This document shows, piece by piece, positions 125-56,742 of a stretch of 64,000 bases of DNA (its first letter is position 1; every line of letters starts with the position of its first letter). The notes under the pieces are model-generated. The model was not told the origin of the DNA. It did no database searches and was given only the letters and a program-made list of their open reading frames with translations. The DNA comes from Planctomycetia bacterium. GTDB lineage: Bacteria; Planctomycetota; GCA-002687715. The position numbers and the translations under genes are program-made. The stretch is taken from the NCBI GenBank assembly GCA_005790545.1, contig SXUL01000088.1, positions 62,001-126,000 of the forward strand, written 5' to 3'.

Positions 125-1729
125 ATGCGGCTCTTGTTTATCAGCGGACTTTTTTGCAGCGTGCTGGCGGCGCAGATTGTCGGGGTCGAACTCAAGGACG
201 AGAAGACCGCCAAGGGCTACGCCAAGTGGCTGTCCGACTGGGAAGGGAAGCCCATGGTGGTGGGCCAGCACTTGAGCGGCTTGATCATCGACCTCAAGGC
301 CAACGTCATCTCGAAGCCGGGCACTTCGAAAGCCATCACCTTGCTCGTTCCGGATCCGGGCAAGCCCGGCATCGAACTCATCGGCGCCGACGGCAAGCGC
401 ACGAGCAATGGCAAGGGCCGCGAGGTGGTCATTCCCGAGGCCGATTTGAAAGCGAAGGACGCGCTGCACCTCTGCTATCCGCACCAGTCCCTGAAGGGGT
501 TGCGCGATGAGTACCTGAAAAAGACCTCGGATATCGAGAAGTTGAAGGCGGAAGGAAAGCTCTTGAAGCCGGGCAGCCCGGAGTGGTTCGCACAGCAGCG
601 GCGCGTGATGGCGCGCGTGGATGCGCTGGTGGGCTGGCTGGGCTCGACGCTTTTCGCCACTGCGTCGCAGGCCCTCGGCAAGGAGTACGCGGCCGGGCTC
701 GCCTTTGAAGCGGGTGCTGCCAGCAAGTCACGTCTCGAGATCGCGAAGGGGATGCTGAAGAGCACGGAGTTGCCGACGGAACTCGTGGAGCTCAGCAAGG
801 AGTGGGGGCGTGGCGATCTGAAGTGGGCGGGTCGCGAGACCCAGCACATCCGGATCGTCGGCTATCAGGATCTCACCAAGTCCGCGCTCGACGGCGCGTG
901 CATTCTGGGTGAGCGCATCATCGAGAGCTTCCGGGTGGAATTCGTCGATCCATTCCTCGCCGAGAATGACAGCGATCTGATCCCCGCGGATCTCATCGAT
1001 GAGTTCTTCTTCTGCCCTGACGACGTGGAACTCGCTGCGAAGTACTACGAGCAGTACTACGGCCGCCGTTTCGGCGAGCCGCGCGAGCGCACGAAGTCGA
1101 TGATGGGCCACCGCGGAGGCGGAGCCCATGGAGCGCGCTGGCTGGAGTTCTGGCGCCTCGGTGGCGGCACGGAACTGGATGGCATGGTCGCTCACGCCCT
1201 CGGTCACAACCTTGCGGCGCTGGCGTGGAATCGTGGCGGGCCGCAGGTGGCGGACTGGATCGGTGAAGGTTGGGCCTACTGGACCAGCTTCGAAGCTCTC
1301 GCACGCAACAATGTGCATTGTGTTTCGTTCCGCCTGCCTGAATACGGTCGCAACAGCACGGAAGCGACGCCGAAGTTCGAGGAGGAGGGGCTGCGTGCGA
1401 CGTTCAATGATCTCGCCGTGCGCTCCGGTCCGGAGTTCACGGCATTGCTCCGCATGACTCTCGTGGACATGGATGCTGCCGCCGTGGCGAAGTCCTGGAG
1501 CATGCTGGATTGGCTTGCTTCGCGGCGCAAAGACAAAATGGGGCCGTTCCTGCGCGCGTGCAATGCGGCGGTGGGGTCGGATGGACGTTCGAATCTCGAG
1601 AAACTCCGGACGGAAGCGCAGGAGATCTTTGCCATTCCGCCGCAGAAGGACGTGTTCGCGGAGATCGAGGCGGAGTGGAAGGGCTACGCGAAGACGGATC
1701 AGAAGAAGGAACGGCCGAGGAAGAAGTGA
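125..1729 (+). CDS. Secreted gluzincin-like protein with degenerate zinc motif
   Basis: A secreted protein of 534 aa. I chose the ATG at 125 because a GGAG lies 6 nt upstream and it starts a clean signal peptide ending Ala-Ala before Gln17. In the second half the protein has a layout typical of gluzincin metallopeptidases: His357-Ala-Leu-Gly-His361, followed about 20 residues later by WIGEGWAYW, whose Glu (about 381) would be the third zinc ligand. In HExxH enzymes the residue after the first His is the catalytic Glu; here it is Ala. The protein may bind zinc but lack normal hydrolytic activity. The rest is not recognised. It overlaps the next gene by 4 nt (GTGA), which implies translational coupling with the glycosidase. 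Confidence 0.7.
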   Translation: MRLLFISGLFCSVLAAQIVGVELKDEKTAKGYAKWLSDWEGKPMVVGQHLSGLIIDLKANVISKPGTSKAITLLVPDPGKPGIELIGADGKRTSNGKGREVVIPEADLKAKDALHLCYPHQSLKGLRDEYLKKTSDIEKLKAEGKLLKPGSPEWFAQQRRVMARVDALVGWLGSTLFATASQALGKEYAAGLAFEAGAASKSRLEIAKGMLKSTELPTELVELSKEWGRGDLKWAGRETQHIRIVGYQDLTKSALDGACILGERIIESFRVEFVDPFLAENDSDLIPADLIDEFFFCPDDVELAAKYYEQYYGRRFGEPRERTKSMMGHRGGGAHGARWLEFWRLGGGTELDGMVAHALGHNLAALAWNRGGPQVADWIGEGWAYWTSFEALARNNVHCVSFRLPEYGRNSTEATPKFEEEGLRATFNDLAVRSGPEFTALLRMTLVDMDAAAVAKSWSMLDWLASRRKDKMGPFLRACNAAVGSDGRSNLEKLRTEAQEIFAIPPQKDVFAEIEAEWKGYAKTDQKKERPRKK

Positions 1730-3369
1730 ACGCTCTCACGCGAGTCGGCCTGACGCTGCTCCTGCTGATGGCGGAGCTTTGCGCGCAGCACACGTTCAGT
1801 CTTGACGAGCTTGCGGGACAGTTGATGGTCCCCTCCGTGGCGGCAGGGCGCGTGCTCACGGATGCCGCGGCTCTCGCGGCTCTCGAAGAAAAGGTGCGCC
1901 ACTCTGTCATCGGCGGCGTGCACATGCTGCGCGCCCAAGCGTCCGAAGTCGCGACGCTCAGCGCGCGCTTGCAGGCGCTTGCCCCGCATCCCCTTTTCAT
2001 CACTGCCGATTGCGAAGGCGGGGCAGGCATCATGTTTCCCGGCGCGACGCGCTTTCCGCGCGGGCTTGCGCTCGCCGCTGCTGGCGATCTGCTGCTCACG
2101 CAGCGTGTGGCCCGGCGCACTGCGGAGGAATCCGGCCTGCTGGGAGTGAATGTCGTGCTCGCACCCGTGGCTGACGTGAACTCCTCGCCCACGAACCCCA
2201 TCATCAATCTGCGTTCCTTCGGAGAGGCACCCTCGTCTGTCGCGGAGCAGGTGCAAGCCTTCGGACGGGCGCTCGAGCAGGCGGGGCTGATGGCGGTCGC
2301 GAAACACTTCCCGGGCCATGGCGACACGCACGAAGATTCTCATCTCGGATTGCCGGTGGTGGATCTCGACTTGAAGGAACTTGAAGCCCGCGAGCTGGTG
2401 CCTTTTCGTGCTGCGGTCGCAGGCGGCATCACAGGCATGATGAGTGCGCATATCGCCTGGCCTCGACTGGGTGGCAAGGACGCCTGGCCGGCCACGCTTG
2501 AGCCGCGGGTGGTGCGCGAACTGCTGCGCGAAAGACTCGGCTTCAAGGGTGTCGTGTTCACAGACGCACTCGACATGGGCGGCATCACGCGGAGAACCAC
2601 GCCAGCAGAAGCAGCGGTGCGCGCGTTGCTCGCGGGTTGCGATGTGCTGCTCTTTCCGACCGACATCCCGGCCATGCGTGCAGCGCTCGCGGAGGCTGTG
2701 CGCTCGGGGCGCATGTCGCGCGAAGTGTTTCATGCGGCGACGCAGCGCGTGCTGCAAGCTCGTCTGCGCTGGAAACATGCACCACGGACCACGTCGGAAG
2801 GTCTCGCGCCCCTGCTGGACACGGATGAAGCACGCGACCTCGCGGAGGAGTGTGCGCGGCGTGGCTGCGTGCGTTTGCGTGACGGAGTGGTGGCTCTTCC
2901 GGAGCGCATCCTCGTGTTGCAGGACCGGCACGAGGACTGGGGCTTCGATCACGTGCCAGAGGCATTCCTCGCAGAGCTGAAGCGCCTCGGTGTGCTATGC
3001 GCAATCGAGAGCATCTCCGGGCGCGAGTCTGAAGCCGAACTTGCGCCGCATAGCCATGCGCGAACTCTCGTGCTTGCAGCGGCGTCGCTTTCACCCGCCG
3101 GGGACAAAGGAGCGTTGGCCGCTGCCGAGCGCAGGCGTGCACGACTGCGCGCCGCGGTCGGTGCCGGTGCAGCCGTGGTGCTGCTGGGGAATCCGCTGGC
3201 GCACGGCGCATTGCCCCAGGGCCAAGGCGCGTTGCTGCTCGGCCTCGACTTCGACGATCACACCCAGCGGGCCCTTGCGCGCGCGCTCATGGGAGTCGGT
3301 CGTGCGGAGGGCCACCTCCCGCTCGCGCTTCCCGGGCTGGCGGCGCGCGGTGCCGGGCTCGGACGCTGA
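1726..3369 (+). CDS. Glycoside hydrolase family 3 beta-N-acetylhexosaminidase-like protein
   Basis: 547 aa from a GTG start that overlaps the previous stop. GAGG lies 5 nt upstream, and the start gives a signal peptide ending Cys-Ala before Gln21. The GH3 TIM-barrel is clear. KHFPGHGD followed by EDSHLGLP is the NagZ-type loop with the Asp-His general acid/base pair, and FTDALDMGG contains the nucleophile Asp. These motifs are typical of exo-beta-N-acetylglucosaminidases that trim muropeptides or chitin oligosaccharides. The signal peptide indicates an exported enzyme rather than cytosolic NagZ. The last 200 residues form a divergent C-terminal domain. The exact substrate is not shown by the sequence. 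Confidence 0.85.
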   Translation: MNALTRVGLTLLLLMAELCAQHTFSLDELAGQLMVPSVAAGRVLTDAAALAALEEKVRHSVIGGVHMLRAQASEVATLSARLQALAPHPLFITADCEGGAGIMFPGATRFPRGLALAAAGDLLLTQRVARRTAEESGLLGVNVVLAPVADVNSSPTNPIINLRSFGEAPSSVAEQVQAFGRALEQAGLMAVAKHFPGHGDTHEDSHLGLPVVDLDLKELEARELVPFRAAVAGGITGMMSAHIAWPRLGGKDAWPATLEPRVVRELLRERLGFKGVVFTDALDMGGITRRTTPAEAAVRALLAGCDVLLFPTDIPAMRAALAEAVRSGRMSREVFHAATQRVLQARLRWKHAPRTTSEGLAPLLDTDEARDLAEECARRGCVRLRDGVVALPERILVLQDRHEDWGFDHVPEAFLAELKRLGVLCAIESISGRESEAELAPHSHARTLVLAAASLSPAGDKGALAAAERRRARLRAAVGAGAAVVLLGNPLAHGALPQGQGALLLGLDFDDHTQRALARALMGVGRAEGHLPLALPGLAARGAGLGR

Positions 3370-3463
3370 GGCGCGCGGTGTGATTGATCCGGCGTGAGGG
3401 ACGCAGTTATTTTTACCGTGAGTTCCCCAGCGCCATGGCCGCGGGCGCACCTTGGGTGTGCGT

Positions 3464-4024: not shown

Positions 4025-4096
4025 GCTCAGCGCCTCCAGCAGGATCATCGCCCCACGGGGCCAAGTCCCCGTGTGAAGCATGTGAAGATTGGATCA

Positions 4097-5080: not shown

Positions 5081-5128
5081 GTCTGGACGGGCTGCGCACT
5101 TGCGTGCTCCAGCGCATAATGTCCGCGC

Positions 5129-6780: not shown

Positions 6781-8847
6781 ATGGCGCTGCTCCGTCTCGT
6801 GGTGATCGGCCTTCTTGTTTCCGGACTCACGGCCCAGAGCGCAGCAAAGCCGCGCCTCAGTCCCGAGAAGTTGTGGGAGTTCGTGCGTGTAGATGGCGGC
6901 TCTTTCAATGCTGCAGGCTCCCACGTGCTGGTGGTGGAGAAGCAGACGACGCTCGCCACGGAAGTGACGACGAGCACGCTCAGCGTGGTGAACAAGGGAG
7001 ACCTGTCGCGCCGCGTGGTCTTGCGCGATGTGCGCGGGCTCGGCGATCCCGAATGGGGGCGCTATCTCGGCGAGGATGTGATCTTCGCCCTGCTGCCGGG
7101 TGATGCGGGCACGCAACTCTTCCGCATCGGCCTCGATGGCAAGAGCACGGCCGTGACGCATGTGGCCGGCGGCATCGACGCGGCGCGCGTGAGCAGCGAC
7201 GGCAAGCATGTTGTCTTCTCGGCGCGGGTGAAGCTCGACACTGATTTCCACACGCTCCATCCGGATCTTCCGAAGGCCGATGCGCGCATCATCGATGGTC
7301 TGCTTTACCGCCACTGGAATGCCTGGGCCGATGGCAGCTATGCGCATTTGTTCAGCGCGCGTCTTGGCGACGGAGGTCTGGCCGGGGAGGCCGTGGATCT
7401 CATGCCCGGATTGCGGACGCACTGTCCGATGCCGCCTTTTGGGGGGCGCGAGCAGTTCGTGATCTCGCCCGATGGTCGCGAGATCGCCTTTGCCGCCAAG
7501 ATGGTGAACCGCCCCGAGCGCTCGACGGACACTGATATCTATGTTGTGCCGATGGGTGGTGGAGAACTCCGCAATCTCACGCAGGAGAATCAAGGCTACG
7601 ACCTTGATCCCGTGTATGCACCCTCGGGCAAGCAGCTTGCGTGGCTCTCGATGGAGCGCGCGGGTTTCGAGGCCGACAAGTCGCGCCTCATGCTGGTCGA
7701 TCTCGCGAGTGACGAACGCCGCGAATTGACAGAGGGCTTTGATGCTTCGGCCCACGACCCGGTGTTCACTGCTGATGGCAGGTATGTCTGGTTCAACGCG
7801 GAGACGCGCGGCACGGTGCAGATCTACCGTGTGAAGCTTGCCGCGGATGCAGGGGAAAGCGCGGCGCCGGAGATCATGACGCAGGGCGCCATCAACTGGG
7901 GCCTCGCGGGCATGGCGCCGAGCGGCAATGAAGTGGTGCTCTCGCGTCAGAGCATGCTGCGGCCACCGGAGCTGGTGTTGCGTGGTGTGCAACTCGACCA
8001 CGAAGATCGTCCTCTCACGAGTGCCAATGACGCGCTGATGGGTGGTCTGGATCTGCCGCAGGTGGAGGAACATTTCGTTCGCGCCACGGATGGGCGCCGC
8101 ATCCAGTGCTGGGTCGTGTTGCCGCCGGGCTTCGAGCGCACGAAGAAACATCCCATGCTGCTCTACTGCCAGGGCGGGCCGCAGTCACAGATCGGGCAGT
8201 CGTTCTCGTTCCGCTGGAATTTTCATCTCATGGCGGCGCAGGGATACGTGGTGCTGGCCGTGAATCGCCGCGGGTTGCCGGGCTTTGGTCAGGAATGGAA
8301 CGACCAGATCAGCGGGGACTGGGGCGGGCAAGCCATGCAGGATCTCCTCGCTGCCTGTGATCACTTCACTGCCCAGCCATGGATTGATGCAGAGCGCGTC
8401 GGAGCCGTGGGCGCGAGTTTTGGCGGGTATTCCGTCTATTGGCTCATGGGCAACGGGGGCGATCGGTTCCGCGCGATGATTTCGCATTGTGGAGTGTTCA
8501 ATCTCGAATCCATGTACGGCGGCACGGAAGAGCTGTTCTTTGCGGATTGGGACCTCGGCGGAGCCTACTGGGCGAGCGAGGAGTCACGTGCGCGCTACGA
8601 ACAGTTCTCGCCGCATCGTTTCGTCGGGCGCTGGAAGACGCCACTCCTCGTCATTCACGGCGAGCAGGATTTCCGCGTCCCGGTGGGGCAGGGCATGGAG
8701 GCCTTCACGGCTGCGCAAAGTGTGGGGGTGCCATCGCGCTTTCTCTATTTCCCGGGAGAGTGTCACTGGGTGCTGCGGCCCCAGAACGGTGTGCTCTGGC
8801 AACGCGTGTTTTTCGACTGGCTGCAACGTCATCTCCGCCAAAAATGA
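6781..8847 (+). CDS. S9-family serine peptidase (acylaminoacyl-peptidase/DPP IV type)
   Basis: 688 aa with a signal peptide ending Thr-Ala before Gln19. Residues about 40-400 form a beta-propeller made of WD40-like PD repeats (for example VISPDGREIAFAA, DLDPVYAPSGKQLAWLS). The C-terminal alpha/beta-hydrolase has the catalytic triad Ser546 in GASFGGY, Asp630 in HGEQDFR and His662 in GECHW. Such enzymes cleave oligopeptides from the N-terminus, usually in the periplasm. GGGA about 10 nt upstream of ATG serves as SD. It is followed 13 nt later by the rhodanese gene on the same strand. Confidence 0.93.
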   Translation: MALLRLVVIGLLVSGLTAQSAAKPRLSPEKLWEFVRVDGGSFNAAGSHVLVVEKQTTLATEVTTSTLSVVNKGDLSRRVVLRDVRGLGDPEWGRYLGEDVIFALLPGDAGTQLFRIGLDGKSTAVTHVAGGIDAARVSSDGKHVVFSARVKLDTDFHTLHPDLPKADARIIDGLLYRHWNAWADGSYAHLFSARLGDGGLAGEAVDLMPGLRTHCPMPPFGGREQFVISPDGREIAFAAKMVNRPERSTDTDIYVVPMGGGELRNLTQENQGYDLDPVYAPSGKQLAWLSMERAGFEADKSRLMLVDLASDERRELTEGFDASAHDPVFTADGRYVWFNAETRGTVQIYRVKLAADAGESAAPEIMTQGAINWGLAGMAPSGNEVVLSRQSMLRPPELVLRGVQLDHEDRPLTSANDALMGGLDLPQVEEHFVRATDGRRIQCWVVLPPGFERTKKHPMLLYCQGGPQSQIGQSFSFRWNFHLMAAQGYVVLAVNRRGLPGFGQEWNDQISGDWGGQAMQDLLAACDHFTAQPWIDAERVGAVGASFGGYSVYWLMGNGGDRFRAMISHCGVFNLESMYGGTEELFFADWDLGGAYWASEESRARYEQFSPHRFVGRWKTPLLVIHGEQDFRVPVGQGMEAFTAAQSVGVPSRFLYFPGECHWVLRPQNGVLWQRVFFDWLQRHLRQK

Positions 8848-8860
8848 AAGAGGGTTGAAC

Positions 8861-9898: not shown

Positions 9899-11230
9899 TC
9901 AGCGACGCGCGGCCGCTTCGGCCCAGTTGGTTCCGGGCTTGAAGGCGGGCGCCACGGCATCGTTCGCCATGGCTTCCACGGCCGCAGCGATGCCCCGCAC
10001 CACACGCGCCATGTTCTCGTAGTCGAGTGTGGAGGCTTCATCGCCCGGCTGGTGGTACTGCTTGTGCAAGGAACCGGCGCTGATGCTGTGCGCCACGACA
10101 CCCTTCTCCGCGAAAGGAAAATTATCGGAACCGCCGAAGAGCATCTTCGACAAGCGCGGATGTTCGTAGCAACGGATGCCCTGCGTTGCAGACACCGCCG
10201 CGACGCGGGCGCCGAAATCGGAGAGCGTCCAGCCGGTCACCCACGCGCAGTCCTTGCCGATGTCATCCGGCCGTCCAACCATCTCAAGATTGAACATGGC
10301 ATCCATGTTCTTGAGTGGCCAGGGCGGATGTTCGACGAAGCGCCGTGAGCCGAGGAATCCGGATTCCTCGCCATAGAAATGGACGAAGAGCACGCTTCTC
10401 TTGAGCGGGCGGTCCTTCAGTGCGAACGCGACGGCCAGCGCCGCCGAGGTCCCGCTGGCGTCGTCATCCGCGCCGTTCCGGATGCGGTCGCCGTCGACCG
10501 GCGGTCCAGTGCCGATGTGGTCGTAATGTGCGGTGACAAGAAGTGCCGAGTCTTTCAGGACGGGATCGCTGCCGGGAAGGAAACTCCCGACGTTGCTGGC
10601 AAAGCGCTCCTTGCCCTCAGGAATCGTGAGCTCCATGTGCGTGCCGGCCGTGCATTGCGCGGCTTCCTCGGGCGTGAGGCGCAGAAGTGGCATGCGCAGA
10701 CGCGGCAACTCCGCCGGCGGTTCGGTGACGAGAATGGCGGCCGGGCGTCGCCGCGCGAGCCTTGCGAGAGCATCCCGTGTGATGGGCCCTGCATGGAGCA
10801 GCACGCTTGCCGTGGATCCCTCGCTGCTCGCGTTATCCGGTGCCTCGGCGGGCAGCACCGCGAGTTGCTTCAGTTGCAGTGGCTGGGATGCCGTATTGAG
10901 AAAACGCTCTGCGCCCAGAGCGAGCACGCCGCCTGCATGGGTGAGCCGCGCCGAGGCGGCGCTGGTGTCCGGACGCATGGGGCCTTCGAGCCGTGCGTTG
11001 CCGAACAATGGCTTCAATCCCAGTTTTTCGTGGCGCTCCGCGAGAAAGGCTGCCGCCTTGTCGAGGCCAGGAGAGGGCGTGGCTCGGCCTTCAAGTTCGT
11101 CGCTCGCGAGGAAATGCACATCGGCCTTCAACGCCTCGGCAGTGATGCGCTGGAGGTGAGCCGCGGGCGCGACCACATCCTGCGCGGGGATGATGGCGGC
11201 CAGCACGAACGCAAAGAGGACGGTTTTCAT
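9899..11230 (-). CDS. Secreted M28-family zinc aminopeptidase
   Basis: 443 aa with a signal peptide ending Pro-Ala before Gln17. The M28 di-zinc site is visible in order: VTAHYDHIG (His), NGADDDASGTS (bridging Asp), FYGEESGFLG (catalytic Glu and Glu ligand), NLEMVGR (Glu at the position often held by Asp) and the late His in YHQPGDE. The region near residues 90-190 resembles a protease-associated (PA) insert. It probably releases N-terminal amino acids from peptides outside the cytoplasm. Its ATG overlaps the stop of the upstream methyltransferase (ATGA), so it belongs to the TGT-methyltransferase transcript. Confidence 0.9.
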   Translation of the reverse strand: MKTVLFAFVLAAIIPAQDVVAPAAHLQRITAEALKADVHFLASDELEGRATPSPGLDKAAAFLAERHEKLGLKPLFGNARLEGPMRPDTSAASARLTHAGGVLALGAERFLNTASQPLQLKQLAVLPAEAPDNASSEGSTASVLLHAGPITRDALARLARRRPAAILVTEPPAELPRLRMPLLRLTPEEAAQCTAGTHMELTIPEGKERFASNVGSFLPGSDPVLKDSALLVTAHYDHIGTGPPVDGDRIRNGADDDASGTSAALAVAFALKDRPLKRSVLFVHFYGEESGFLGSRRFVEHPPWPLKNMDAMFNLEMVGRPDDIGKDCAWVTGWTLSDFGARVAAVSATQGIRCYEHPRLSKMLFGGSDNFPFAEKGVVAHSISAGSLHKQYHQPGDEASTLDYENMARVVRGIAAAVEAMANDAVAPAFKPGTNWAEAAARR

Positions 11231-13228: not shown

Positions 13229-14550
13229 AGCCTTTGCGATGCCATGTGCAAAGTTGCAATGCCACTTGGAGCGCTCACGAGCCCCGTCAGGAACGTATCC
13301 ATGATGGAGCGGAGTTCTGCCGCGGGTGCGACGGCAGCCTGCACGCTCATGGCAAACACGAGTTCGCGGCCGGTGGCGTCCTGCATGTATCCGGCGAGCA
13401 CGGCGAGACCTTCCAGCGTGCCTGTCTTCGCAATGATGCGGCCTTCCGCAGCACTGCCTTTGTAGCGTTTCGAGAGCGTGCCTGTGCGTCCAGACACGGG
13501 AAGAAAACTCCGGAGACGGCCGGGATGTCGCAGCTCCTCGGTGCGGAGCAGCGTGGTGAGGGTGCGCGCCGTGGTGAGGTTGTAGCGGGACACGCCGCTG
13601 CCGTCGGCGAAGCGGAGTTTCGCGGCGTCAACACCACGGAACTCCAGCATGTTGCGGACGGATGCCAGCCCGGCTGCGGCACTCTGATCGGCGCCGCCAG
13701 CAAGCCGGAGCAGGCATTCCGCGACGAGGTTGTCGCTGTCGAGCAATGCCGCGCGCAGCGACTCCGCGAGCGGGCGTTGGAAGCGCGCAAGGACACGCGC
13801 GGGCGCGGTGCCCGACATATTCCGAGCCTTCGCCGATACTTCCACCACATGGCCATGTTGGCGGAATGCCGCGGCCACGAGTTCGAGCAGGTCCAGAGGC
13901 TGATCAGCGCGTGTGCTGCCATGCAGCCGGAGGGGAAGCACGCGCAATTCCTCGAGGCCGTCGTCCCACATCCAGCCTTCTCCGAGATCGGGGCCCGCAA
14001 AGGGACCCTGCGCAGCGGAGAGCGTGATGTTGCCAAGGGGCAGGGCCGCCGCCGCCGCGCTCGCGAGACTCCTCACGGCGTCCGCGTCGAGGAGCGCGTC
14101 GCCAGCGCCGCTGACCACGACGTTGGCAGGCACTCCGTCTGCGGCAGGCATGAGCACGATGCTCGTGACGAGCTGCGTCTCCAGAGGCCTTGCAGCGAGA
14201 ACAGCCGAGGCCGTCATGAGCTTCTGCGTGGAGGCCGGAATCAGCAATGCGTCCGGGCGGCATTCGAGGAGCGTGCCACCCGTCACGAGGTCCACCACAT
14301 GCAGATGGACTTCCGCGCCGCGTTGCAGAGCGGCAAGTGTGGCGGTCATGAGAAGCGTCTCCTCGGCGGTCTTGCTGACGCAGGAGGACACACTCGCAGC
14401 AGCGAGCGCACAAAGTACCGCCGCGGCGATGCGCTGGCAGCGGTGTTGCCAGCGCGCGCCGGGTGAGGGCTCAGAAGGTGATGCGGACCGCGGGTGTGGC
14501 GCCGATGAAGCTGTTGCCTGCTCCGAGCGCGACAGCGAGCCCGTCGGCAC
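13225..14550 (-). CDS. dacB: PBP4-type D-alanyl-D-alanine carboxypeptidase (S13), start uncertain
   Basis: The body is clearly peptidase family S13: SxxK as ASTQKLM, SxN as DSDN and KTG as AKTGT, in the right order. It would trim or hydrolyse peptidoglycan cross-links in the periplasm. Upstream of the domain there is a hydrophobic stretch (AAAVLCALAAASVSSC) with a lipobox-like end, suggesting a lipoprotein. No ATG, GTG or TTG exists in frame between the preceding stop at 14471 and that signal. The nearest usable codon is GTG 14550, inside the S8 gene with no SD. GTG 14391 and ATG 14349 would lose the signal sequence. A non-standard start or a sequence error is possible. Confidence 0.8.
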   Translation of the reverse strand: MPTGSLSRSEQATASSAPHPRSASPSEPSPGARWQHRCQRIAAAVLCALAAASVSSCVSKTAEETLLMTATLAALQRGAEVHLHVVDLVTGGTLLECRPDALLIPASTQKLMTASAVLAARPLETQLVTSIVLMPAADGVPANVVVSGAGDALLDADAVRSLASAAAAALPLGNITLSAAQGPFAGPDLGEGWMWDDGLEELRVLPLRLHGSTRADQPLDLLELVAAAFRQHGHVVEVSAKARNMSGTAPARVLARFQRPLAESLRAALLDSDNLVAECLLRLAGGADQSAAAGLASVRNMLEFRGVDAAKLRFADGSGVSRYNLTTARTLTTLLRTEELRHPGRLRSFLPVSGRTGTLSKRYKGSAAEGRIIAKTGTLEGLAVLAGYMQDATGRELVFAMSVQAAVAPAAELRSIMDTFLTGLVSAPSGIATLHMASQRL

Positions 14551-20702: not shown

Positions 20703-21650
20703 TCAGGGGCTCGGCGACTTCAAGCCGAGGACACGCAGCCATTGGAAGGCCGGGCCCGGATCCGACTTGTTGGTCTGCACATGATAGTGGCCGAGGACGC
20801 CGTGAAACGCAGCGAACTCGGCGTCGTCCAGGCAGCGGTCCAGCACCGCGCCTGTCGTATCCACAGGAACGCGGGCTTCAATCCGGGGGAGTGCAGTGCG
20901 CACGCTGCTGATGAGGGCTGCAAGGGAGCGATACTGCTCCTCCGTGAAGTCGTGTTGGACCAGAGCCGTGCCGTTGATGCGCCCCGAGTGCAGGGCCTCG
21001 GTTGACGGACGCGCGAGAGCGCCGCTCCCGCGAAAGCCGGGCGCACCAGTCTTCTGCGGTATGGCCAGCCACAAGCGACCGGATGTGTCGTGTTGATAGA
21101 GGCGCGCGAGATCTTCCACCTTGGTCGCGGCTCCGATCTGTGCGATCTCGATGCCGATGGAGCGGTCATTGGCCTTGGTTGCGTGACGCGCGCGGTGGGC
21201 GAGGTCAAGGGTTTGATAGACGGTGCCATCAAGGTCCAGAAGAAAGTGCACTGAAAGTCCGCGCTGATCATGAAGCACATCGAAACACTGCGCACTGTCG
21301 AGGCACACGTCGTAGTGCATCACGAATTGGTCGATGCGTTCGCGGAGAGTCGGCAGATCCCAGCCGCTGCTGGCGACGCGCGCTTGAGTGGCGGCGTCAA
21401 GGTCCCTGGCTGAGCGGACGCCGTAGCGCTTCTCCGTTGCCGTGTCCGGTCCTGCGGAGCGAGGCAATGCGGCGTTGCTGAAGTGGCACTTCTCGCTGTG
21501 GGCGTCAAAGCCCTGCGGGTCTTGCCACTGAATCACGTGCGCCGCACAGGGGAAGCGTTCTCCTGCCACGACAATGAACGACTGCGGTGCGCCTGCGCAG
21601 GCGCCCAGAAGCATGAAGAGGAAAGAGAGTGCGCTGCGCTTCAGGCTCAG
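20703..21650 (-). CDS. N-acetylmuramoyl-L-alanine amidase (Amidase_2), lipoprotein
   Basis: About 315 aa. The zinc amidase fold of AmpD/PGRP is visible: FVMHYDVC (first His ligand), LSVHFLLDLDGTVYQTLD, NDRSIGIEIAQ (family Glu) and GHYHVQTNKSDPGPAFQW (second His, Lys and the Asp ligand, as in AmpD). It should cleave the amide between MurNAc and the stem peptide. The N-terminus KRSALSFLFMLLGAC is a lipoprotein signal. The only start codon that includes it is a CTG at 21650, which overlaps the TGA of the upstream gene as CTGA; GAGG lies 3 nt before. An ATG inside the signal would truncate it. Confidence 0.82.
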   Translation of the reverse strand: MSLKRSALSFLFMLLGACAGAPQSFIVVAGERFPCAAHVIQWQDPQGFDAHSEKCHFSNAALPRSAGPDTATEKRYGVRSARDLDAATQARVASSGWDLPTLRERIDQFVMHYDVCLDSAQCFDVLHDQRGLSVHFLLDLDGTVYQTLDLAHRARHATKANDRSIGIEIAQIGAATKVEDLARLYQHDTSGRLWLAIPQKTGAPGFRGSGALARPSTEALHSGRINGTALVQHDFTEEQYRSLAALISSVRTALPRIEARVPVDTTGAVLDRCLDDAEFAAFHGVLGHYHVQTNKSDPGPAFQWLRVLGLKSPSP

Positions 21651-44104: not shown

Positions 44105-45979
44105 ATGATCCGCTTTCTTGCCGTTCTTTCGGTCCTTCTCGCACTCGCCACCTCGGCGCCGACCGCCAAGCCTGATGAAGGCATGTGGACGTATGACAAC
44201 CTGCCTCTCAAGACCCTGAAGGAGAAGTACGGATTCGAGCCTTCGGCGGCCTGGCTGAAGCAGGTTCAATCGAGCAGCGTGCGCGTGAGCACCGGTGGTT
44301 CCGGTTCGTTCGTGTCGAGCACCGGGCTCATCATGACCAACCACCACGTGGCTCTCGAACTGGTGAACAAGCTCAGCACCACGAACGCGGATTTCGTGAA
44401 GAGCGGCTACCTCGCGAAGACGGGCGCCGACGAACTCAAGTGCCCCGACGCCAACGTGCGCGTGCTCATGGAGATCGTCGATGTGACTGCGGAAGTGGAA
44501 GCCGCGACGGCGGGCAAGGAAGCGGCTGACGCCGCGAAGGCCCGCGCCAAGGTGCAGGGCGAAATCACCAAGCGCCTGACGGCCGAGAAGAACCTTGAAG
44601 TCGAGATGACGACGCTCTACAGCGGCGGCCGCTATGTCGCGCACTGCTACAAAGTCTGGAACGACGTGCGCCTCGTGTTCGTGCCGGAAATGGCGATTGC
44701 CTACTACGGCGGCGACTGGGACAACTTTTGCTACCCGCGCTACTGCCTCGACGTGGCCTTCCTCCGCGCCTACGAGAACGACAAGCCCGCAGACACCACC
44801 GCGAACCACCTCGTGTGGAACGCCGCAGGTCCCAAGGAGAACGACCTCGTGTTCGTCTCCGGCCACCCGGGCAGCACGGGCCGTCAGATGTCTCTCGCCA
44901 AGATGGCCTTCGAGCGCGATGTCTACAACCCCTGCCTCATTCGCATGCTGAAGGGGACGGAAGCGTCCATCGTCGGCTACGTGGGTGCCGATGCAGAGCG
45001 GAAGCTTGCAACGCTGGATGAGCTGTTCGGCGTGCGCAACTCCCTCAAGGCCTACGAAGGTCATCAGGTGGGTGCCCTTGATGCGTCGCTCTTCGCCCGC
45101 AAGAAGGCCGAAGAAGACCAGCTTCGCGAGGCTTGCAAGGACGATGCCGAAGTGGTGAAGGCCTTCAAGGATCTCGACGAGATCATGGCCATCAGAAGCG
45201 CCAACTACCCCGTGCTCATGATGGCGCGCTTTGCGCAGGGCATCATGATGCCCGCGAAGGTCGACAACGAGCGTGAGAGTCACAACCTCGCGTCCATGTT
45301 CGAGTATGCACGCCAGAGCTTCGGCGATACTGATGAAGTGCTCACCAAGTTCGTCGGTACGGAAGCTGCCGGAAAGGCCGCGCTCGCCCTGCTTGAGACG
45401 CCCGAGAAGCTGAAGGAACTGCGCAGTCACATCCGCGCGCGCATCATGCCGGCTCAAACGGCACTGCAGCCGACCAACGCCCGCGAGGCGGCCGCCAATT
45501 CCGTGATCGCGAAGGCCCGCTTCAAGGTGCACGGCACGAGCCTCTACCCCGATGCCACCTTCACCCTGCGCTTGTCGTTCGGCGAAGTGAAGGGCTATGC
45601 GCTCAACACCACGCTGGTGCCCTGGCGCACGACCTTTGGCGGACTCTTCGGCAAGGCCAGCGAGTTCGACAACAAGGCGCCCTTCGAAGTGCCGGCGACA
45701 TGGACCGCAGCGCAGGGACAGCTCGACATGTCCACACCCTTCGATTTCGTCTCCACCTGCGACATCACGGGCGGCAACTCCGGGAGTCCCGTTGTGAGCC
45801 GCACCGGCGAAGTCGTCGGCCTCATCTTCGACGGCAACATCCAGAGCCTGCCGAATCACTACGTGTACGACGAAGTGGTGGCACGGAGCGTGAGCGTCGA
45901 CACGGCTGCGATCTCCGCAGCACTGGTCCACGTCTACAAGGCCGCGGATCTCGCCAAGGAACTCGGCCTCACCAAGTGA
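44105..45979 (+). CDS. S46-family dipeptidyl-peptidase (DPP7-like)
   Basis: 624 aa with a signal peptide (LLALATSAPTA). Family S46 enzymes release dipeptides from the N-terminus of oligopeptides in the periplasm. The catalytic triad is visible as LIMTNHHVA (His), YYGGDWDNF (Asp) and ITGGNSGSPVV (Ser); the Asn and Trp of the amino-terminus-binding site are near the Asp motif. At the S1 specificity position the sequence reads LIFDGN, Gly as in DPP7 rather than Arg as in DPP11, pointing to hydrophobic rather than acidic P1 residues (alignment by eye). GGAG is 8 nt before ATG. Confidence 0.94.
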   Translation: MIRFLAVLSVLLALATSAPTAKPDEGMWTYDNLPLKTLKEKYGFEPSAAWLKQVQSSSVRVSTGGSGSFVSSTGLIMTNHHVALELVNKLSTTNADFVKSGYLAKTGADELKCPDANVRVLMEIVDVTAEVEAATAGKEAADAAKARAKVQGEITKRLTAEKNLEVEMTTLYSGGRYVAHCYKVWNDVRLVFVPEMAIAYYGGDWDNFCYPRYCLDVAFLRAYENDKPADTTANHLVWNAAGPKENDLVFVSGHPGSTGRQMSLAKMAFERDVYNPCLIRMLKGTEASIVGYVGADAERKLATLDELFGVRNSLKAYEGHQVGALDASLFARKKAEEDQLREACKDDAEVVKAFKDLDEIMAIRSANYPVLMMARFAQGIMMPAKVDNERESHNLASMFEYARQSFGDTDEVLTKFVGTEAAGKAALALLETPEKLKELRSHIRARIMPAQTALQPTNAREAAANSVIAKARFKVHGTSLYPDATFTLRLSFGEVKGYALNTTLVPWRTTFGGLFGKASEFDNKAPFEVPATWTAAQGQLDMSTPFDFVSTCDITGGNSGSPVVSRTGEVVGLIFDGNIQSLPNHYVYDEVVARSVSVDTAAISAALVHVYKAADLAKELGLTK

Positions 45980-50597: not shown

Positions 50598-51608
50598 ATG
50601 CTGAGACTCGTGATCCCCGCAACTCTGGTGCTGCTGGTCGGTGCGCTCTGCGCCCAGCAGGATGCCGCGCCGAAGAGGAACTTCGGCCTCGCCAAGCCCA
50701 TCAAGATCAGCGCCGAGAGCGAGGTCTACGGTGGTGAATTGAAGGCTCTGCCGCTCGCCACCGTGGTCGGCATCGAAGCAAAGCCCGACGCCTGGAAGGG
50801 CAAGACCGTGCAACTCCGCGGCAAGATCGACAAGGTCTGCGCCAAGAAGGGCTGCTGGATGACCCTCGGCGGCGGCAAGGAGCCCGTGCGCGTCGGCTTC
50901 AAGGATTACTTGTTCTTTGTTCCGCTCGATGCGGCCGGCCGCGAGGTCGCTGTTGAGGGCATCGTGGATGTGCGCGTCGAGACCGAAGCGGAACGCCGCC
51001 ACTACGCCGAGGACGCCAAGAAGAGCAAGGAAGAGATCGAAGCCATCAAGGGTGACAAGGTTGTGGTTTCGTTCGTCGCCGATGCAGTACAGATCGGGAA
51101 GCTCCCGGAGGCACCCGCTGCCGCGAAGCTCGAAGGCCTTGCCCCCGCGAAGGATGCTGGCGGCCCGGTTTGTCCGGATGTGAAGGCGGGCGAAGCACCC
51201 GCGAAGAAGGACGGCTGCGGCGGCTGCGAGAAGATGGGTGAGAAGAAAGCCGGCGAAGCACCGGCCAAGAAGGACGGCTGCGGCGGCTGCGAGAAGATGG
51301 GCGAGAAGAAGACTGGCGAGGCTCCCGCGAACAAGGACGCAGGCTCGCACTGCGAGAAGATGGGCGAGAAGAAAGCCGGCGAAGCACCTGCGAAGAAGGA
51401 CGGCTGCGGCGGCTGCGAGAAGATGGGCGAGAAGAAGACGGGCGAGGCTCCCGCGAACAAGGACGCAGGCTCGCACTGCGAGAAGATGGGCGAGAAGAAG
51501 GCCGGCGAAGCACCTGCGAAGAAGGAAGACTGCGGCAGCTGCGAAAAGCAGGCGCCTGCTTCCAAGGATGCGACGGGCACACGCGCTCCGGCCCCGGCCG
51601 GCGGCTGA
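50598..51608 (+). CDS. Secreted DUF4920 protein with Cys-rich tandem-repeat tail
   Basis: 336 aa with a strong SD (GGAGAGGAG) and a signal peptide ending Cys-Ala before Gln20. Residues about 30-165 are an OB-like DUF4920 domain (VVGIEAKPDAWKGKTVQLRG, VCAKKGCWM, RVGFKDYLFFVPLDAAGREVAVEG). From residue 197 a tail of 21-aa repeats, GEAPAKKDGCGGCEKMGEKK or its variant with NKDAGSHC, continues almost to the end. CGGC units look metal- or heme-binding-like, and the tail is very Lys-rich. A role in metal handling is an inference. Its stop abuts the convergent M28 stop (TGATCA). Confidence 0.82.
   Translation: MLRLVIPATLVLLVGALCAQQDAAPKRNFGLAKPIKISAESEVYGGELKALPLATVVGIEAKPDAWKGKTVQLRGKIDKVCAKKGCWMTLGGGKEPVRVGFKDYLFFVPLDAAGREVAVEGIVDVRVETEAERRHYAEDAKKSKEEIEAIKGDKVVVSFVADAVQIGKLPEAPAAAKLEGLAPAKDAGGPVCPDVKAGEAPAKKDGCGGCEKMGEKKAGEAPAKKDGCGGCEKMGEKKTGEAPANKDAGSHCEKMGEKKAGEAPAKKDGCGGCEKMGEKKTGEAPANKDAGSHCEKMGEKKAGEAPAKKEDCGSCEKQAPASKDATGTRAPAPAGG
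51186..51551 (+). repeat. 63-bp coding tandem repeats, 5.8 copies in A-A-B-A-B-A order
   Basis: Units start at 51186, 51249, 51312, 51375, 51438 and 51501 (last partial). Type A encodes ...KKDGCGGCEK..., type B ...NKDAGSHCEK.... Units 3-4 and 5-6 are nearly the same 126-bp pair, showing a higher-order duplication. All copies stay in frame. Confidence 0.95.
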
Positions 51609-52880
51609 TCAAGCCTTTCGCGTTGTCAGTTTGAAGGTGAGAAGCTTTCGACCTCGCTGCACTTTGAGTTGCAGCGGGGTCGCTGGTCTTTTGAGGTCGA
51701 AGAACTCGTGCACAGCGCCGAGGTCACCCGCGGGTTTGCCATCGAGCTGGACGAACTTGTCTCCCTGCTGCAGCCCGGCCTTGGCACCTTCACCGGTGTT
51801 CTCGATGGAGGTGATCACCGCGGCCGTGCCTTCCGCCACGAGGCGCACCCCGAGATGCCAGAAGGGGCCCTCGACACCGCGCTCGGACGTGCGCGGCATG
51901 GCCTGGCGCGCGTCTTCTCCGAACTTGGGCTTCGCGTCCGCACCAAGACGCCTGATGAGACGATAGGCAAGGCGCGTGATGCGCGTGAGATCAACCGCGT
52001 TGATGCGATCGGCGTCATCGTCCGGCGTGTGATAGTCCGCGTGTTCCGCCGTGAAGAAGAACATTGAAGGGACGCCGAGTCCATAGAACGAATCGTGGTC
52101 GCTCGGGCCACGGCCGCCACCATGCAACTCCAGCTTGAACTGGAAGGGTTTGTTCAGTTCGCGGGTGAGCGTCTCGAAGGTTGAGCCAGTATTGAGTCCG
52201 CCGACGAACAGATACTGATCACGACTGCGCCCGACCATGTCGAGGTTGAGCATGCAGGTGAGCTGCGCCACAGGCTGCGTCGGCTTCTTGCACCAGGCCT
52301 TGCTGCCGACCAGTCCGAGTTCCTCTCCGGAGAACGCGAGGAAGAGCACGCTGCGCTTCGCGGGCTTCTTCGCAACGGCCTCCACGAGTTCGAGCAGCGC
52401 ACTGGTTCCCGAGGCGTTGTCATCCGCGCCGTTGTGGATCTGACCACGCCCCGCATCGCCCTTCCGCGATCCGAAGGCTCCGATCCCTACATGGTCGTAG
52501 TGCGCACCCACCACGACGAATTCCTTCTTCAGCCCGGGGTCCGTCCCGGGCACGAGGCCGCAGATATTCCGGCACACACGGTTGATGGCGGGGAATTTGT
52601 TCGGGAAGTCCTTCTCCTCGCCGGCCGGTTTCAGGCCATGCTTCTTCATGATCTCGATGATGCGGTCGCCCGCACGCGCGATCTCGTCAGAGCCAGTGAC
52701 GCGTCCTTTCAACTCGTCACTCGCGAGGAAGTTGAGGTGTTCCATCACGCCTTCCTGCGTGATGAGAGCCTCTCCTTCATCCGCCGGGTCCTGCGCATGC
52801 ACCGCGAGACTTGAGCACAGCAGGCAGAGCAGGAATGTGAGAGGAGCGAAGCGGCGCTCGGCGCGGGCTTCGCGTAGCAT
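51609..52880 (-). CDS. Secreted M28 zinc peptidase with C-terminal PDZ domain
   Basis: 423 aa with a signal peptide ending His-Ala before Gln30. M28 di-zinc ligands in order: VGAHYDHVG (His), NGADDNASGTS (Asp), FSGEELGLVG (Glu pair), NLDMVGR (Asp) and ADYHTPDDD (His). A PDZ domain covers about 330-420 (HLGVRLVAEGTAAVITSIENTGEGAKAGLQ-type), ending in VQRGRKLLTFKL. The architecture is that of exported aminopeptidases of the PDZ-M28 kind. It is a distant relative of the M28 gene at 9899, which lacks the PDZ. The start at 52880 is chosen for the signal peptide; no SD is seen. Confidence 0.92.
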   Translation of the reverse strand: MLREARAERRFAPLTFLLCLLCSSLAVHAQDPADEGEALITQEGVMEHLNFLASDELKGRVTGSDEIARAGDRIIEIMKKHGLKPAGEEKDFPNKFPAINRVCRNICGLVPGTDPGLKKEFVVVGAHYDHVGIGAFGSRKGDAGRGQIHNGADDNASGTSALLELVEAVAKKPAKRSVLFLAFSGEELGLVGSKAWCKKPTQPVAQLTCMLNLDMVGRSRDQYLFVGGLNTGSTFETLTRELNKPFQFKLELHGGGRGPSDHDSFYGLGVPSMFFFTAEHADYHTPDDDADRINAVDLTRITRLAYRLIRRLGADAKPKFGEDARQAMPRTSERGVEGPFWHLGVRLVAEGTAAVITSIENTGEGAKAGLQQGDKFVQLDGKPAGDLGAVHEFFDLKRPATPLQLKVQRGRKLLTFKLTTRKA

Positions 52881-52920
52881 CCGCGTGTCCCGCAGGTCGC
52901 GGGAATCCGGGGAGATGTGC

Positions 52921-54180
52921 ATGCTGCGTGTGGTGGCGTTCATGTTTGCGGGCTTGGTGCTGGCGGGTTGTCGGGACAGTGCAGAGAGCGGCGCAGGTGA
53001 TGGGCTCATTCTGCCAGATCCACCCAGACGCGCCTTGGTGCTGCCCGGCGTGACGCGGGGCAGTTGGGTGGTGCGCACCACCCTCACGGACCGTGCCGCC
53101 GTGAAGCGCATCGTGGATGAGGCTGTGGTGGCCGGGTTCAACACGCTTGTGGTGCAGGTGCGCGGCCGGGGAGATGCGTTCTACAGAAACGGGATCGAAC
53201 CCGTCGCCGCACACATGGAGGTGGGGAGCTTCGACCCTCTGGAGGAGATCATCCGCTTCGCTCATGAGCGCGGATTGGTGGTGCACGCCTGGATCAATGC
53301 GAATCTCGTGGCCGATGTCAGTGCCATGCCGGTTGATGCGCGGCACGTGGTGAACGCCCATCCCGAGTGGCTGCAGGTTCCTGACAAGTTGCAGCATGAT
53401 CTCGTCGGCATGGGTGCGAGGGATCAGCGCTTTCTCCCGATGCTCGTCGCACACGCGACGCAGGAGAAGGGCTCAGTCGAGGGCCTGTATGGCGATCCTG
53501 CGGTGCCGGAGTACCGCGCGCATGTGGCCGACATCGCTGCGGATGTGGCCAGGCGCTATCCCGTCGAGGGCATTCATCTCGACTACATCCGCTATCCCGG
53601 GCCCGCGTTCGGCATGTCCACGCGTGGTTTCGAGGCTTGGAAACTGGATCTCGCTCCACGTCTGAACGCCAAGGAGTCCACGGAGCTGAAGGCCGCCGAG
53701 AAGACCGACCTCATGCTTTCGCTGCGTCGTTATCCGCAGGCCTTCGCGAATCACCGTCGTGAAGCGGTGAACGCCATGGTGTTCGAGGTGCAGCGTCGCG
53801 TGCGTGCTGTACGTCCGGACATTCACATAAGCGCAGCGGTCTTTCCCGATCCCGAGAGCTGTCGCGAGCGACAGTTCCAGGATTGGCGTGTCTGGCTGCG
53901 CGAGGGCTGGATCGACAGCGCCTGTCCCATGAACTACGCGGCGGAGCGCCCGCAATTCGAACGTGCCATGCTGGCAGAGCTGCTGGAGAATCCGCAGCGC
54001 GTGTGGGTGGGAATCGGCGCCTGGAAACTGGATCTCGTGGAGACTTTGGACCGGATGGGAGCCGCACTGCGGCACGGCGCCGGTGGGACGATCCTCTTCT
54101 CGCATGGTGGCCTCGCAGGGCAGCCGGGCGCGTTCACGAAGCTCGGCGAAGCGGTGACAGGGAGCCCAGCCCGCGATTAG
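52921..54180 (+). CDS. GHL10-family lipoprotein (glycosyl hydrolase-like)
   Basis: 419 aa. ATG 52921 has GGAG at 6 nt and starts a lipoprotein signal (FAGLVLAGC). The TIM-barrel is of the GHL10/YngK type: FNTLVVQVRGRGDAFY, GLVVHAWINANL, HPEWL, VEGIHLDYIRYP (Asp in the usual catalytic position), AVFPDPESC and IDSACPMNY. Family members are thought to act on cell-wall or amino-sugar polymers, but biochemistry is scarce. It is divergent from the M28-PDZ gene and followed 24 nt later by an M14 peptidase. Confidence 0.87.
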   Translation: MLRVVAFMFAGLVLAGCRDSAESGAGDGLILPDPPRRALVLPGVTRGSWVVRTTLTDRAAVKRIVDEAVVAGFNTLVVQVRGRGDAFYRNGIEPVAAHMEVGSFDPLEEIIRFAHERGLVVHAWINANLVADVSAMPVDARHVVNAHPEWLQVPDKLQHDLVGMGARDQRFLPMLVAHATQEKGSVEGLYGDPAVPEYRAHVADIAADVARRYPVEGIHLDYIRYPGPAFGMSTRGFEAWKLDLAPRLNAKESTELKAAEKTDLMLSLRRYPQAFANHRREAVNAMVFEVQRRVRAVRPDIHISAAVFPDPESCRERQFQDWRVWLREGWIDSACPMNYAAERPQFERAMLAELLENPQRVWVGIGAWKLDLVETLDRMGAALRHGAGGTILFSHGGLAGQPGAFTKLGEAVTGSPARD

Positions 54181-54204
54181 AGTGTCCGTCCCAGGAGACG
54201 GAAC

Positions 54205-56742
54205 ATGTCGCTGCGCGCTCTCTTCGCCCTTGCCCTGTTGCTCGCGTGCCTGCCGGCTCAGGCGAACTGGATCGAACGTGTGCTCGGAGAGACCCCAGAG
54301 GCAGCCAGGGCTCTCCAGCTTCCTGTCGCCCACGCACTCGGTGAGCGCGCGAGCAGTCCGGAAGAGATCGTTGCCACAGCACGCCTGCTCGCCGGAAGAC
54401 GCGTCCGACTTCTTGAAACGGGACGCTCAGTGACAGGGCGTCCGCTCATGCATGCTCTCGTGAGCTCGCCCCGCAATCTGGGGCGCTGGGAGAGCACCGC
54501 TGCGGCGCATCGCCAATTGCTCGAAGAGGGTGGCACCCCGCCAGCGGATCTGCCGGTTTCGGTCTGGTTCTGCATGAGCGTGCACGGCAACGAACTCAGT
54601 GGATCCGAAGCGGGTCTCGCACTGCTCCGTCATCTCGCGACGGCCACGAGTGCAGAGGTCGAACAAATCCTCGAGGCCGTAGTGCTTGAGATTGCGCTGG
54701 ACATGAACCCCGACGGGCGCGCGCGCGCCGTGGCCGGGCAGCGTGATCGTCAGCAATGGGCGGGCGAGGATGCGCTGGGTTCATTTGCGCATGCGGAACC
54801 GTGGCCGGGCGGTCGTGTGAACGGCCACTGGTTCGACCTCAATCGCGATTGGTATCTGCAAACGCAGCCGGAAACGCGCGCACGGTTGGCAAGGCTTGTC
54901 GCCGCTCCGGCGCAGGTCATCGCGGACTTCCACGAAATGGGCGCGGATGACGGCTACTTCGCCGGAACTCCGGCAGGACCACCGGATTCTCTGCTGGCGG
55001 GGCCGGAAGTGCGCTCCATGCTGGCGCTGCTCGACCGGGCCTTGCAGCAGAGTTTCGACGGGGCCGGACGCGCGCTCTGGAATGCCGATCGCTTCCCGTC
55101 CGATTACCCCGGCTATGGCGGGGCGTGGGGCATGTTCTCCGGTGCGGCGGCGCTCACTCTCGAGCAGGCTTCTGCGGGTGCCGGCCGTGCGCGGCGCAGT
55201 GACGGAACGGTTCTGCCGTTTGAAGAGGCCTGCGAGAACCATTTGCGGGCAGCGTGGGCCTTGCTCGGCAGTGCCGCAGCGTCGCGCGGGGAAATGCTGC
55301 GTCTCTTTGCTGCGCACGGAGAACGTGTGCGCGAGGAAGCCGCGCGTTCGGAGCGGCCGGACTTCATCTTCGCGCCGCTGCCGGATGCGGGATTGCTCGA
55401 ATACCTGGCCAGCACCTTGCAGCAGAACGGCATCAGCGTGCGACGTCTGCAAGAGGCGTGCACTCTGGAGGTGCTGGCTCTCGGCATGAAGGCTTCCGGA
55501 TCTCCGGCCCCGGAGCAGCGGAGCTTTCCGGCCGGTTCTCTCGTGGTGAAGTCGGTGCAAGGCCGTGGTGCGCTGGTGAAGGCACTGCTCGAGCCGGATC
55601 TTCCGTCGGACGCCGCCTTCGAGAGGGCGGAGGCCGAGCGACGTTCAGCGCGCGCGCGTTCTGAGCGCTATGACGTGAGTGCGTGGTGTCTCGGCCTGCT
55701 GGGTGGCGTTGCTGGTTTTCGGACTGCTGCCGTGGAAGCGTCCCTTCTCACGCCATGGGCGCCGTCCGAGAAGCTTGCGGGCACTCCCGATGACAGTGCC
55801 GTGTTGTGGGCAACGCGCGCTGCAGGTGTGTTCGCATTCCGCACCCACGCAGAACTTCTCGCGAAGGGCATCCGCTTCCGGCATGTGCCCTTCGAGTTCA
55901 GCGCAGCGGGACAGGTCTTCCCGGCGGGAACGCTGATTGCTCTCGCGGAGCGGAATCGTGAGCCTGCCCTGCGAGCTGCACTTGCCGAGGCTGTGCGAAA
56001 CGGTGTTCTCATCCCGCTGCGTTCGGCTGCCTCCGCGTCCGGACATGATCCGGCCTCATGGAGGACGAAGGCACTTCTCGAACCCGACCTCGTGCTGCTG
56101 GTGGGAGAAGGCACCAACGCGAACTCAGCAGGTGCCTTGGGCTGGCTGCTCCACGATCTGCTGGCGCTTCCAGTGCGCAGAGTCGCGCAGCCGGGGCTCG
56201 GTCGTGCGCTGGAACATGCAACGGCTCTGATCCTGCCGGATGGCAGCTATCCGCGCGGTTGCGGCGAGAAGGATGTGCAGGCGTTTCTTGCACGTGGCGG
56301 TGTCGTGGTGGCGCTGGGAGGCGCCGTGACGACGCTGGCTGGCAAAGAAGGTCCGCTCGCAGACTGGAAGAAACAGGATCGAGTGGACGATTTTACGAGC
56401 TTCAACGGCCTGATCGTTGAGGGGAGCATTCTGCCCGAGCACTGGCTTGCCGCAGGCATGCAAGCCAACCTCTTCTGGCCGCTGCGCGGTGCCTTGCAGC
56501 CATTGCCCGCAGCCAACGGCGCACAAGGCCGGGTGGTGTTGGAGGCGCGCCGTCAGGTGGCTGGATCGCAGCCCGGCGCAGGCGACGTGATTCAGGCGAA
56601 GCTGCCTCTCGTGACGGACTGGCCCGTGGAGCGTGGCCGCGTCGTGGCCTTCATGGGCGATCCCGTCGCACGTGGGATGGCGCCTGTGGCGTGGGAGTTG
56701 CTCGTGCGCGCGCTGCTGCTCGGCCCATCCGAGGGGCGCTGA
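54205..56742 (+). CDS. Secreted M14-family zinc carboxypeptidase-like protein
   Basis: 845 aa with a signal peptide ending Pro-Ala before Gln19 and SD AGGAG. M14 zinc site: His127-x-x-Glu130 in SVHGNELSGSE and His243 in ADFHEMG. Substrate-binding NRD is visible in DLNRDWY. The catalytic domain (about 40-330) is followed by about 500 aa not recognised. Part of that has a class I glutamine amidotransferase-like style (ALILPDGSYPRGCGEKDVQAFLARGGVVVALGG), as seen in other large planctomycete/Bacteroidetes M14 proteins. It probably trims C-terminal residues or peptidoglycan peptides outside the cell. Confidence 0.9.
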   Translation: MSLRALFALALLLACLPAQANWIERVLGETPEAARALQLPVAHALGERASSPEEIVATARLLAGRRVRLLETGRSVTGRPLMHALVSSPRNLGRWESTAAAHRQLLEEGGTPPADLPVSVWFCMSVHGNELSGSEAGLALLRHLATATSAEVEQILEAVVLEIALDMNPDGRARAVAGQRDRQQWAGEDALGSFAHAEPWPGGRVNGHWFDLNRDWYLQTQPETRARLARLVAAPAQVIADFHEMGADDGYFAGTPAGPPDSLLAGPEVRSMLALLDRALQQSFDGAGRALWNADRFPSDYPGYGGAWGMFSGAAALTLEQASAGAGRARRSDGTVLPFEEACENHLRAAWALLGSAAASRGEMLRLFAAHGERVREEAARSERPDFIFAPLPDAGLLEYLASTLQQNGISVRRLQEACTLEVLALGMKASGSPAPEQRSFPAGSLVVKSVQGRGALVKALLEPDLPSDAAFERAEAERRSARARSERYDVSAWCLGLLGGVAGFRTAAVEASLLTPWAPSEKLAGTPDDSAVLWATRAAGVFAFRTHAELLAKGIRFRHVPFEFSAAGQVFPAGTLIALAERNREPALRAALAEAVRNGVLIPLRSAASASGHDPASWRTKALLEPDLVLLVGEGTNANSAGALGWLLHDLLALPVRRVAQPGLGRALEHATALILPDGSYPRGCGEKDVQAFLARGGVVVALGGAVTTLAGKEGPLADWKKQDRVDDFTSFNGLIVEGSILPEHWLAAGMQANLFWPLRGALQPLPAANGAQGRVVLEARRQVAGSQPGAGDVIQAKLPLVTDWPVERGRVVAFMGDPVARGMAPVAWELLVRALLLGPSEGR

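Follow-up and report, generated by a model that had tools for sequence, protein, structure and literature searches.

Why should the signal peptides encoded in one stretch of a planctomycete contig almost all end in Ala followed by Gln? The stretch (hereafter, the window) comprises 64,000 nucleotides of contig SXUL01000088.1 (positions 62,001 to 126,000; assembly GCA_005790545.1) from a Planctomycetia bacterium, and a sequence-only reading of it had likened this pattern to the Q-rule of Bacteroidetes. Here, we propose that the source organism itself follows a Q-rule, which we consider highly probable: signal peptidase I (SPI) would expose Gln at position +1, a lipoprotein glutaminyl cyclase (QC) would cyclise it, and the resulting cap would be protective. 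This is based on a strong +1 Gln bias, the conservation of this Gln between orthologs, a QC gene with its catalytic residues and a lipobox, and the co-variation of the bias with cyclase genes among relatives.

The organism, which the sequence-only reading had judged not to be one of the Bacteroidetes, is an uncultured member of the Planctomycetota, represented by a 2.87 Mb metagenome-assembled genome (MAG) of 133 contigs (91% complete, contamination estimate 2.95%), and its class contributes 12 genomes to our comparison set. Signal peptides were scored in the window plus a further 376 kb of the home genome (440 kb together, about 15% of the whole) and in 60-200 kb of each relative. The predictor was home-made, locating cleavage only by the h-region together with residues -3, -2 and -1 and penalising Pro at +1; E. 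coli K-12 served as a control for this main pipeline, and a cruder site picker, in which the end of the h-region was fixed, as an alternative. In the 440 kb, 41 of the 76 predicted SPI substrates (54%) carry Gln at +1 against a mature-protein background of 3.3% (p=2e-40), so that tabulating the +1 residue beyond the window, in this part of the genome, gives the strong Gln excess that the genome-wide check suggested from the window was meant to look for; with strict cleavage sites the count is 34/53 (64%). The peak is confined to +1, with Gln making up 0-8% at -5 to -1 and at +2 to +7. The shortfall below full +1 Gln is partly mis-sited cleavage, because the motif [AGS]Q lies no more than six residues from the predicted site in 67% of substrates overall and in 79% of the strict set. 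Since the 76 substrates represent 61 sequence families and a +1 Gln member is present in 34 of these, paralogous families are ruled out as the source of the bias. Degenerate DNA patterns (a hydrophobic run, then AxA and Gln), counted across many genomes, did not separate groups.

The Gln is also conserved between orthologs. Pairing the secreted proteins of the class by reciprocal best match gave 27 pairs in which one member or both carry [AGS]Q close to the cleavage site, and in 25 of them both do. Once these 25 are aligned on the Gln, no position from +2 to +10 has identical residues in more than 10 pairs, the range being 1-10. Examples are SAVSA/QSPR against TAFA/QEPR, ALSA/QEAK against GLRA/QDEA, and ALCA/QQDA against AVLA/QDPV (a slash marks the predicted cleavage site). 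Where the S46 peptidase of the window departs from the pattern, its ortholog in the relative G009 reads ..SLSA/QDVN. These pairs indicate that the +1 Gln is kept by selection on the position while its surroundings diverge.

If the exposed Gln is to be cyclised, what might the enzyme be? Ten M28-family matches were found in the home genome (G000), and one of them is a QC gene that lies outside the window (G000:C21:1894-2859); its own sequence and the fold model of an ortholog place its 322-residue product among the glutaminyl cyclases of the animal type (type II, M28). With phmmer against the PDB, the protein matched the Acidobacteriales QC 7d18 at E=1e-29, fly QCs at about 1e-25 and human QCs at about 1e-23, and established aminopeptidases only at 1e-9 or weaker. 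Equivalents of human D159, E201, E202, W207, D248, W329 and H330 are all present in it (alignment row L011), as they are in most related planctomycete QCs. A fold model of its ortholog in the congener G001 (mean predicted local distance difference test score 80, from a three-sequence alignment) matched, in order, 7d18 and the fly, Fimbriiglobus ruber, human and P. gingivalis cyclases, at 20-29% identity; in both sequence and fold it is thus nearer to QCs than to M28 aminopeptidases. With the type II QCs (7d18; 7d1b from F. ruber, itself a planctomycete; human; fly) the home-genome protein has in common the M28 fold and the single-zinc residue set, W207, W329 and H330 equivalents included, and at this level of identity it differs from them in being a predicted lipoprotein, with the lipobox MPRALMLFVLLLSFTVLSA directly before Cys. 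The QC orthologs of G001, G006 and G007 have a lipobox too. The cyclase search recommended by the sequence-only reading has therefore turned up an animal-type QC lipoprotein in the genome, outside the window.

Further searches delimit this finding. An NCBIfam search returned no name for the home-genome QC, no plant-type QC (type I; PF05096, a five-bladed propeller) was found in the home genome, and no pyroglutamyl peptidase I was found in the class. Scanning named genomes with the single QC sequence gave no match; scanning them with a QC alignment gave five loci, all in Planctomycetota MAGs, the nearest in Baikal-deep-G176 (the congener G001). As for the two M28 proteins of the window, the earlier view that they are not QCs holds, for a different reason from the one offered. 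It had appealed to the His of the di-zinc site, which does not discriminate QCs because the home-genome QC retains it (in HYDSK); the window proteins at 9899 (AP_L003) and 51609 (AP_L001) instead have a gap and Tyr at the QC Trp207 and Trp329 columns, and by Pfam they are ordinary M28 peptidases.

Across the class, 10 of the 12 genomes have a QC: the animal type in G000, G001, G002, G006, G007 and G011, and the plant type in G003, G004, G006, G008 and G010. Neither type was found in G005 (76% complete) or in G009 (86% complete, with two QC-bearing congeners). A similar pattern has been described for the two cyclase lineages of Bacteroidetes (PMC5837995). Both types occur together in G006 (L179 and L084), G230 and G246, perhaps one in the middle of being replaced by the other, and the plant-type gene of G003 (L087, on contig C1) is partly masked as N. 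Where a cyclase is present, Gln at +1 reaches 54% (G000), 41% (G001), 33% (G002), 47% (G003), 47% (G004), 45% (G026) and 59% (G035), with 1/6 in the tiny sample of G006; where none was found it is 8% (G023), 7% (G027), 0/7 (G021), 0/7 (G037), 1/5 (G022) and 1/4 (G025), and also 36% (G009) and 4/12 (G032). Pooled over the sampled Planctomycetota, the count is 110/236 (47%) with a QC against 9/76 (12%) without (p=1e-8, which is only indicative, as the genomes are not independent), G032 being placed among the cyclase-negative genomes and G009 and G034 excluded. In other families, the small loci around cyclase genes held too few signal peptides for percentages.

How else could Gln come to follow the cleavage site so regularly? 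Chance, composition or a prediction artefact of one window would draw on the simplicity of the predictor and on a sample that is part of a MAG, and we give it a negligible probability. The bias extends over 440 kb; the main pipeline found +1 Gln in only 1/22 E. coli K-12 proteins, with recognisable cleavage sites; and P(Q after A) is only 0.027 within the proteins of the home genome, so that chance is excluded for the window sites. The residues most often seen after the Cys of the 21 predicted lipoproteins in the home-genome sample do not include Gln, and among QC-negative planctomycetes, those in which over five signal peptides were scored mostly show 0-8%. Taken together, the 440-kb count, the E. 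coli control, the P(Q after A) value and the conservation between orthologs refute chance or composition. The number of contigs and the contamination estimate of the MAG would allow the window or the QC contig to be mis-binned Bacteroidetes DNA, which we regard as very improbable, and which we reject as congeners share both the QC and the bias: the QC of G001 is 73-74% identical and is encoded on a contig of 42.5 kb, G001 and G002 to G004 have the +1 Gln bias as well, and the home-genome QC keeps the Glu of position 202 that is replaced by Asp in about 91% of Bacteroidetes QCs. A preference of the clade's signal peptidase I or secretion route could also yield +1 Gln in the absence of cyclisation, the cyclase-like gene serving otherwise, and G032, in which the bias is seen but neither cyclase type was found, fits such a preference. 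We nevertheless think it unlikely, since the bias follows the presence of cyclases whose two folds are unrelated, a pattern not expected from a peptidase preference, and since G026 and G035, of other families, are equally biased with a plant-type QC. N-terminal Gln cyclises slowly without an enzyme, and G032 would equally suit an account in which the exposed N-terminal Gln would cyclise spontaneously or have some other use, with the QC only adding to it. This we hold to be improbable, as almost all genomes of the class have cyclase genes and the animal-type cyclases of the class are predicted lipoproteins, as in Bacteroidetes.

Several observations weigh against a planctomycete Q-rule. The home-made predictor is one, as the cruder site picker gives +1 Gln in only 28/79 home-genome cases (35%), which is still ten times background; another is the location of the QC gene on C21, a contig of just 12 kb within a MAG. 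In addition, G032 is 94% complete and neither QC type was found in it, and G034 encodes an animal-QC-like protein and yet has +1 Gln in only 1/29 (3%), that protein having Tyr for Trp207 and no lipobox. Proteins of the G034 type (L017, L204-L208) form a separate, fully supported planctomycete M28 clade in the QC tree (in which row L193 is a wrongly trimmed frame whose placement carries no meaning). They have Arg for the Lys of HYDSK and Tyr or Phe for Trp207, none of those read was predicted to be a lipoprotein, and they may thus perhaps not be Q-rule cyclases. The G032 locus on contig C2 (L144-L147), with its Gln bias and no known cyclase, could reflect a third cyclase type or an assembly gap.

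In light of a planctomycete Q-rule, what might the exposed Gln be for? The chain of events expected from work on Bacteroidetes runs from export through SPI cleavage and a membrane-anchored QC to protection from exopeptidases (PMC10653852). By analogy, SPI cleavage after Sec export would leave most Sec substrates with an N-terminal Gln, the membrane-anchored animal-type QC would turn this Gln into pyroglutamate, and the pyroglutamate cap would shield exported proteins from the aminopeptidases and dipeptidyl peptidases (M28, S46 and S9) that the organism itself secretes. Peptidases of families S46 and S9 are encoded in the window alongside M28 proteins, and S46 peptidases were found in 9/9 class genomes tested. 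DPP7 and DPP11 belong to family S46. The Bacteroidetes Q-rule has been tied to periplasmic dipeptidyl peptidases such as these two (PMC10653852). Among 244 Planctomycetota, and with kinship not corrected, a QC of any type occurs in 27/43 genomes with S46 and in 42/201 without (p=3e-7), and S46 occurs in 19/25 genomes with a strong animal-type QC compared with 24/219 others; G026 has the +1 Gln bias without S46. It is conceivable, though we would put it somewhat short of an even chance, that the Q-rule arose independently in several Planctomycetota lineages, each recruiting the cyclase type available, as a defence against their own dipeptidyl peptidases.

Within the window itself (Table 1), all eleven genes that had been listed with Gln after Ala are seen to have it in their translations, with the Ala fitting the (-3,-1) rule; the Thr-Gln of the gene at 30011 and the departure of the S46 peptidase were likewise read correctly. 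Ten of the eleven sites are unambiguous, because the M14 carboxypeptidase at 54205 has a lipobox-like LLAC directly before its site and could, by sequence, be a lipoprotein instead of an SPI substrate. The +1 Gln proteins belong to unrelated Pfam families, namely GH3, S9, M28 (two), S8, HEAT, sortilin/Vps10 (two), DUF4920 and M14. The adjacent sortilin/Vps10-like genes (23474-29244) overlap by 4 bases. A further window gene (41532-43646) encodes an FHA-domain protein in which TA/QPSE follows a hydrophobic segment at the N-terminus. This segment is probably a membrane anchor, and as the predictor took it for a signal peptide and counted the Gln at +1, the protein may be a false positive among the 41.

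Table 1. Secreted proteins encoded in the window, with the end of the signal peptide and the start of the mature protein (a slash marks the predicted cleavage site)
Product	Position	Strand	Cleavage site	Gln codon	Remark
Secreted protein, no Pfam family	125..1729	+	..FCSVLAA/QIVG	173-175	
GH3 glycosidase	1726..3369	+	..MAELCA/QHTF	1786-1788	
S9 prolyl-oligopeptidase family (DPP4/DPP5 family)	6781..8847	+	..VSGLTA/QSAA	6835-6837	
M28 peptidase	9899..11230	-	..AAIIPA/QDVV	11182-11180	without QC Trp residues
Subtilase-like protein (S8)	14471..17023	-	..LSAVSA/QSPR	16972-16970	
HEAT-repeat secreted protein	21647..23062	-	..AGLQPA/QAPA	23014-23012	
Sortilin/Vps10-like protein with PDZ domain	23474..26431	+	A/Q	23537-23539	
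Sortilin/Vps10-like protein	26428..29244	+	..MCALSA/QEAK	26476-26478	A/Q kept in G001 ortholog
Small secreted protein, no Pfam family	30011..30352	+	..AAALPLT/QDSD	30077-30079	
S46 peptidase (DPP7/DPP11 family)	44105..45979	+	..ATSAPTA/KPDE		exception
DUF4920 protein	50598..51608	+	..VGALCA/QQDA	50655-50657	A/Q kept in G003 ortholog
M28-PDZ peptidase	51609..52943	-	..LAVHA/QDPA	52793-52791	without QC Trp residues
M14 carboxypeptidase	54205..56742	+	..LLACLPA/QANW	54259-54261	possible lipobox LLAC

How does this system compare with what is known? As in the Bacteroidetes Q-rule (PMC5837995, PMC10653852), most SPI substrates have Gln immediately past the cleavage site (here, in 440 kb of the 2.87 Mb), an animal- or plant-type cyclase is encoded, and the home-genome cyclase is predicted to be anchored as a lipoprotein. 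With these three testable genomic features in place, the planctomycete system would appear to work like the Q-rule, a likeness drawn from genes, with cyclisation predicted. Two unrelated cyclase types likewise substitute for each other between relatives, and secreted exopeptidases, including S46 and S9, are similarly abundant. Unlike the Bacteroidetes Q-rule, the host phylum belongs to the Planctomycetes-Verrucomicrobia-Chlamydiae group and not to the Fibrobacteres-Chlorobi-Bacteroidetes group, and the automated +1 Gln values (33-59% where samples were adequate, and as much as 65-77% with strict sites) lie against a Bacteroidetes average of 71%. Although the Q-rule was called exclusive to Bacteroidetes in 2023 (PMC10653852), high Q-values elsewhere had been noted in 2018, in Ignavibacterium album (77%), Chloroherpeton (55%) and some cyanobacteria (PMC5837995). 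These likewise have a high +1 Gln, but they are isolated species with 'no obvious pattern' (PMC5837995), whereas here a whole planctomycete class is involved, with cyclase co-variation. Thus, the idea that a Q-rule-like logic operates outside Bacteroidetes is supported by the strong +1 Gln bias and the animal-type QC lipoprotein, although the high values are not the first of their kind. In the open-licence papers searched, we found no earlier report of a Q-rule in Planctomycetota and none of a Q-rule-type role for a planctomycete type II QC.

The cause of the Q-rule in Bacteroidetes has itself been inferred and not shown. A second phylum with the bias, its own QCs, cyclase-negative relatives and varying peptidases would make the idea of protection from a cell's own exopeptidases testable by comparison. 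For these uncultured planctomycetes, anyone predicting mature ends should expect Gln at +1, and a proteomics search that leaves out N-terminal pyroglutamate would miss such N-termini.

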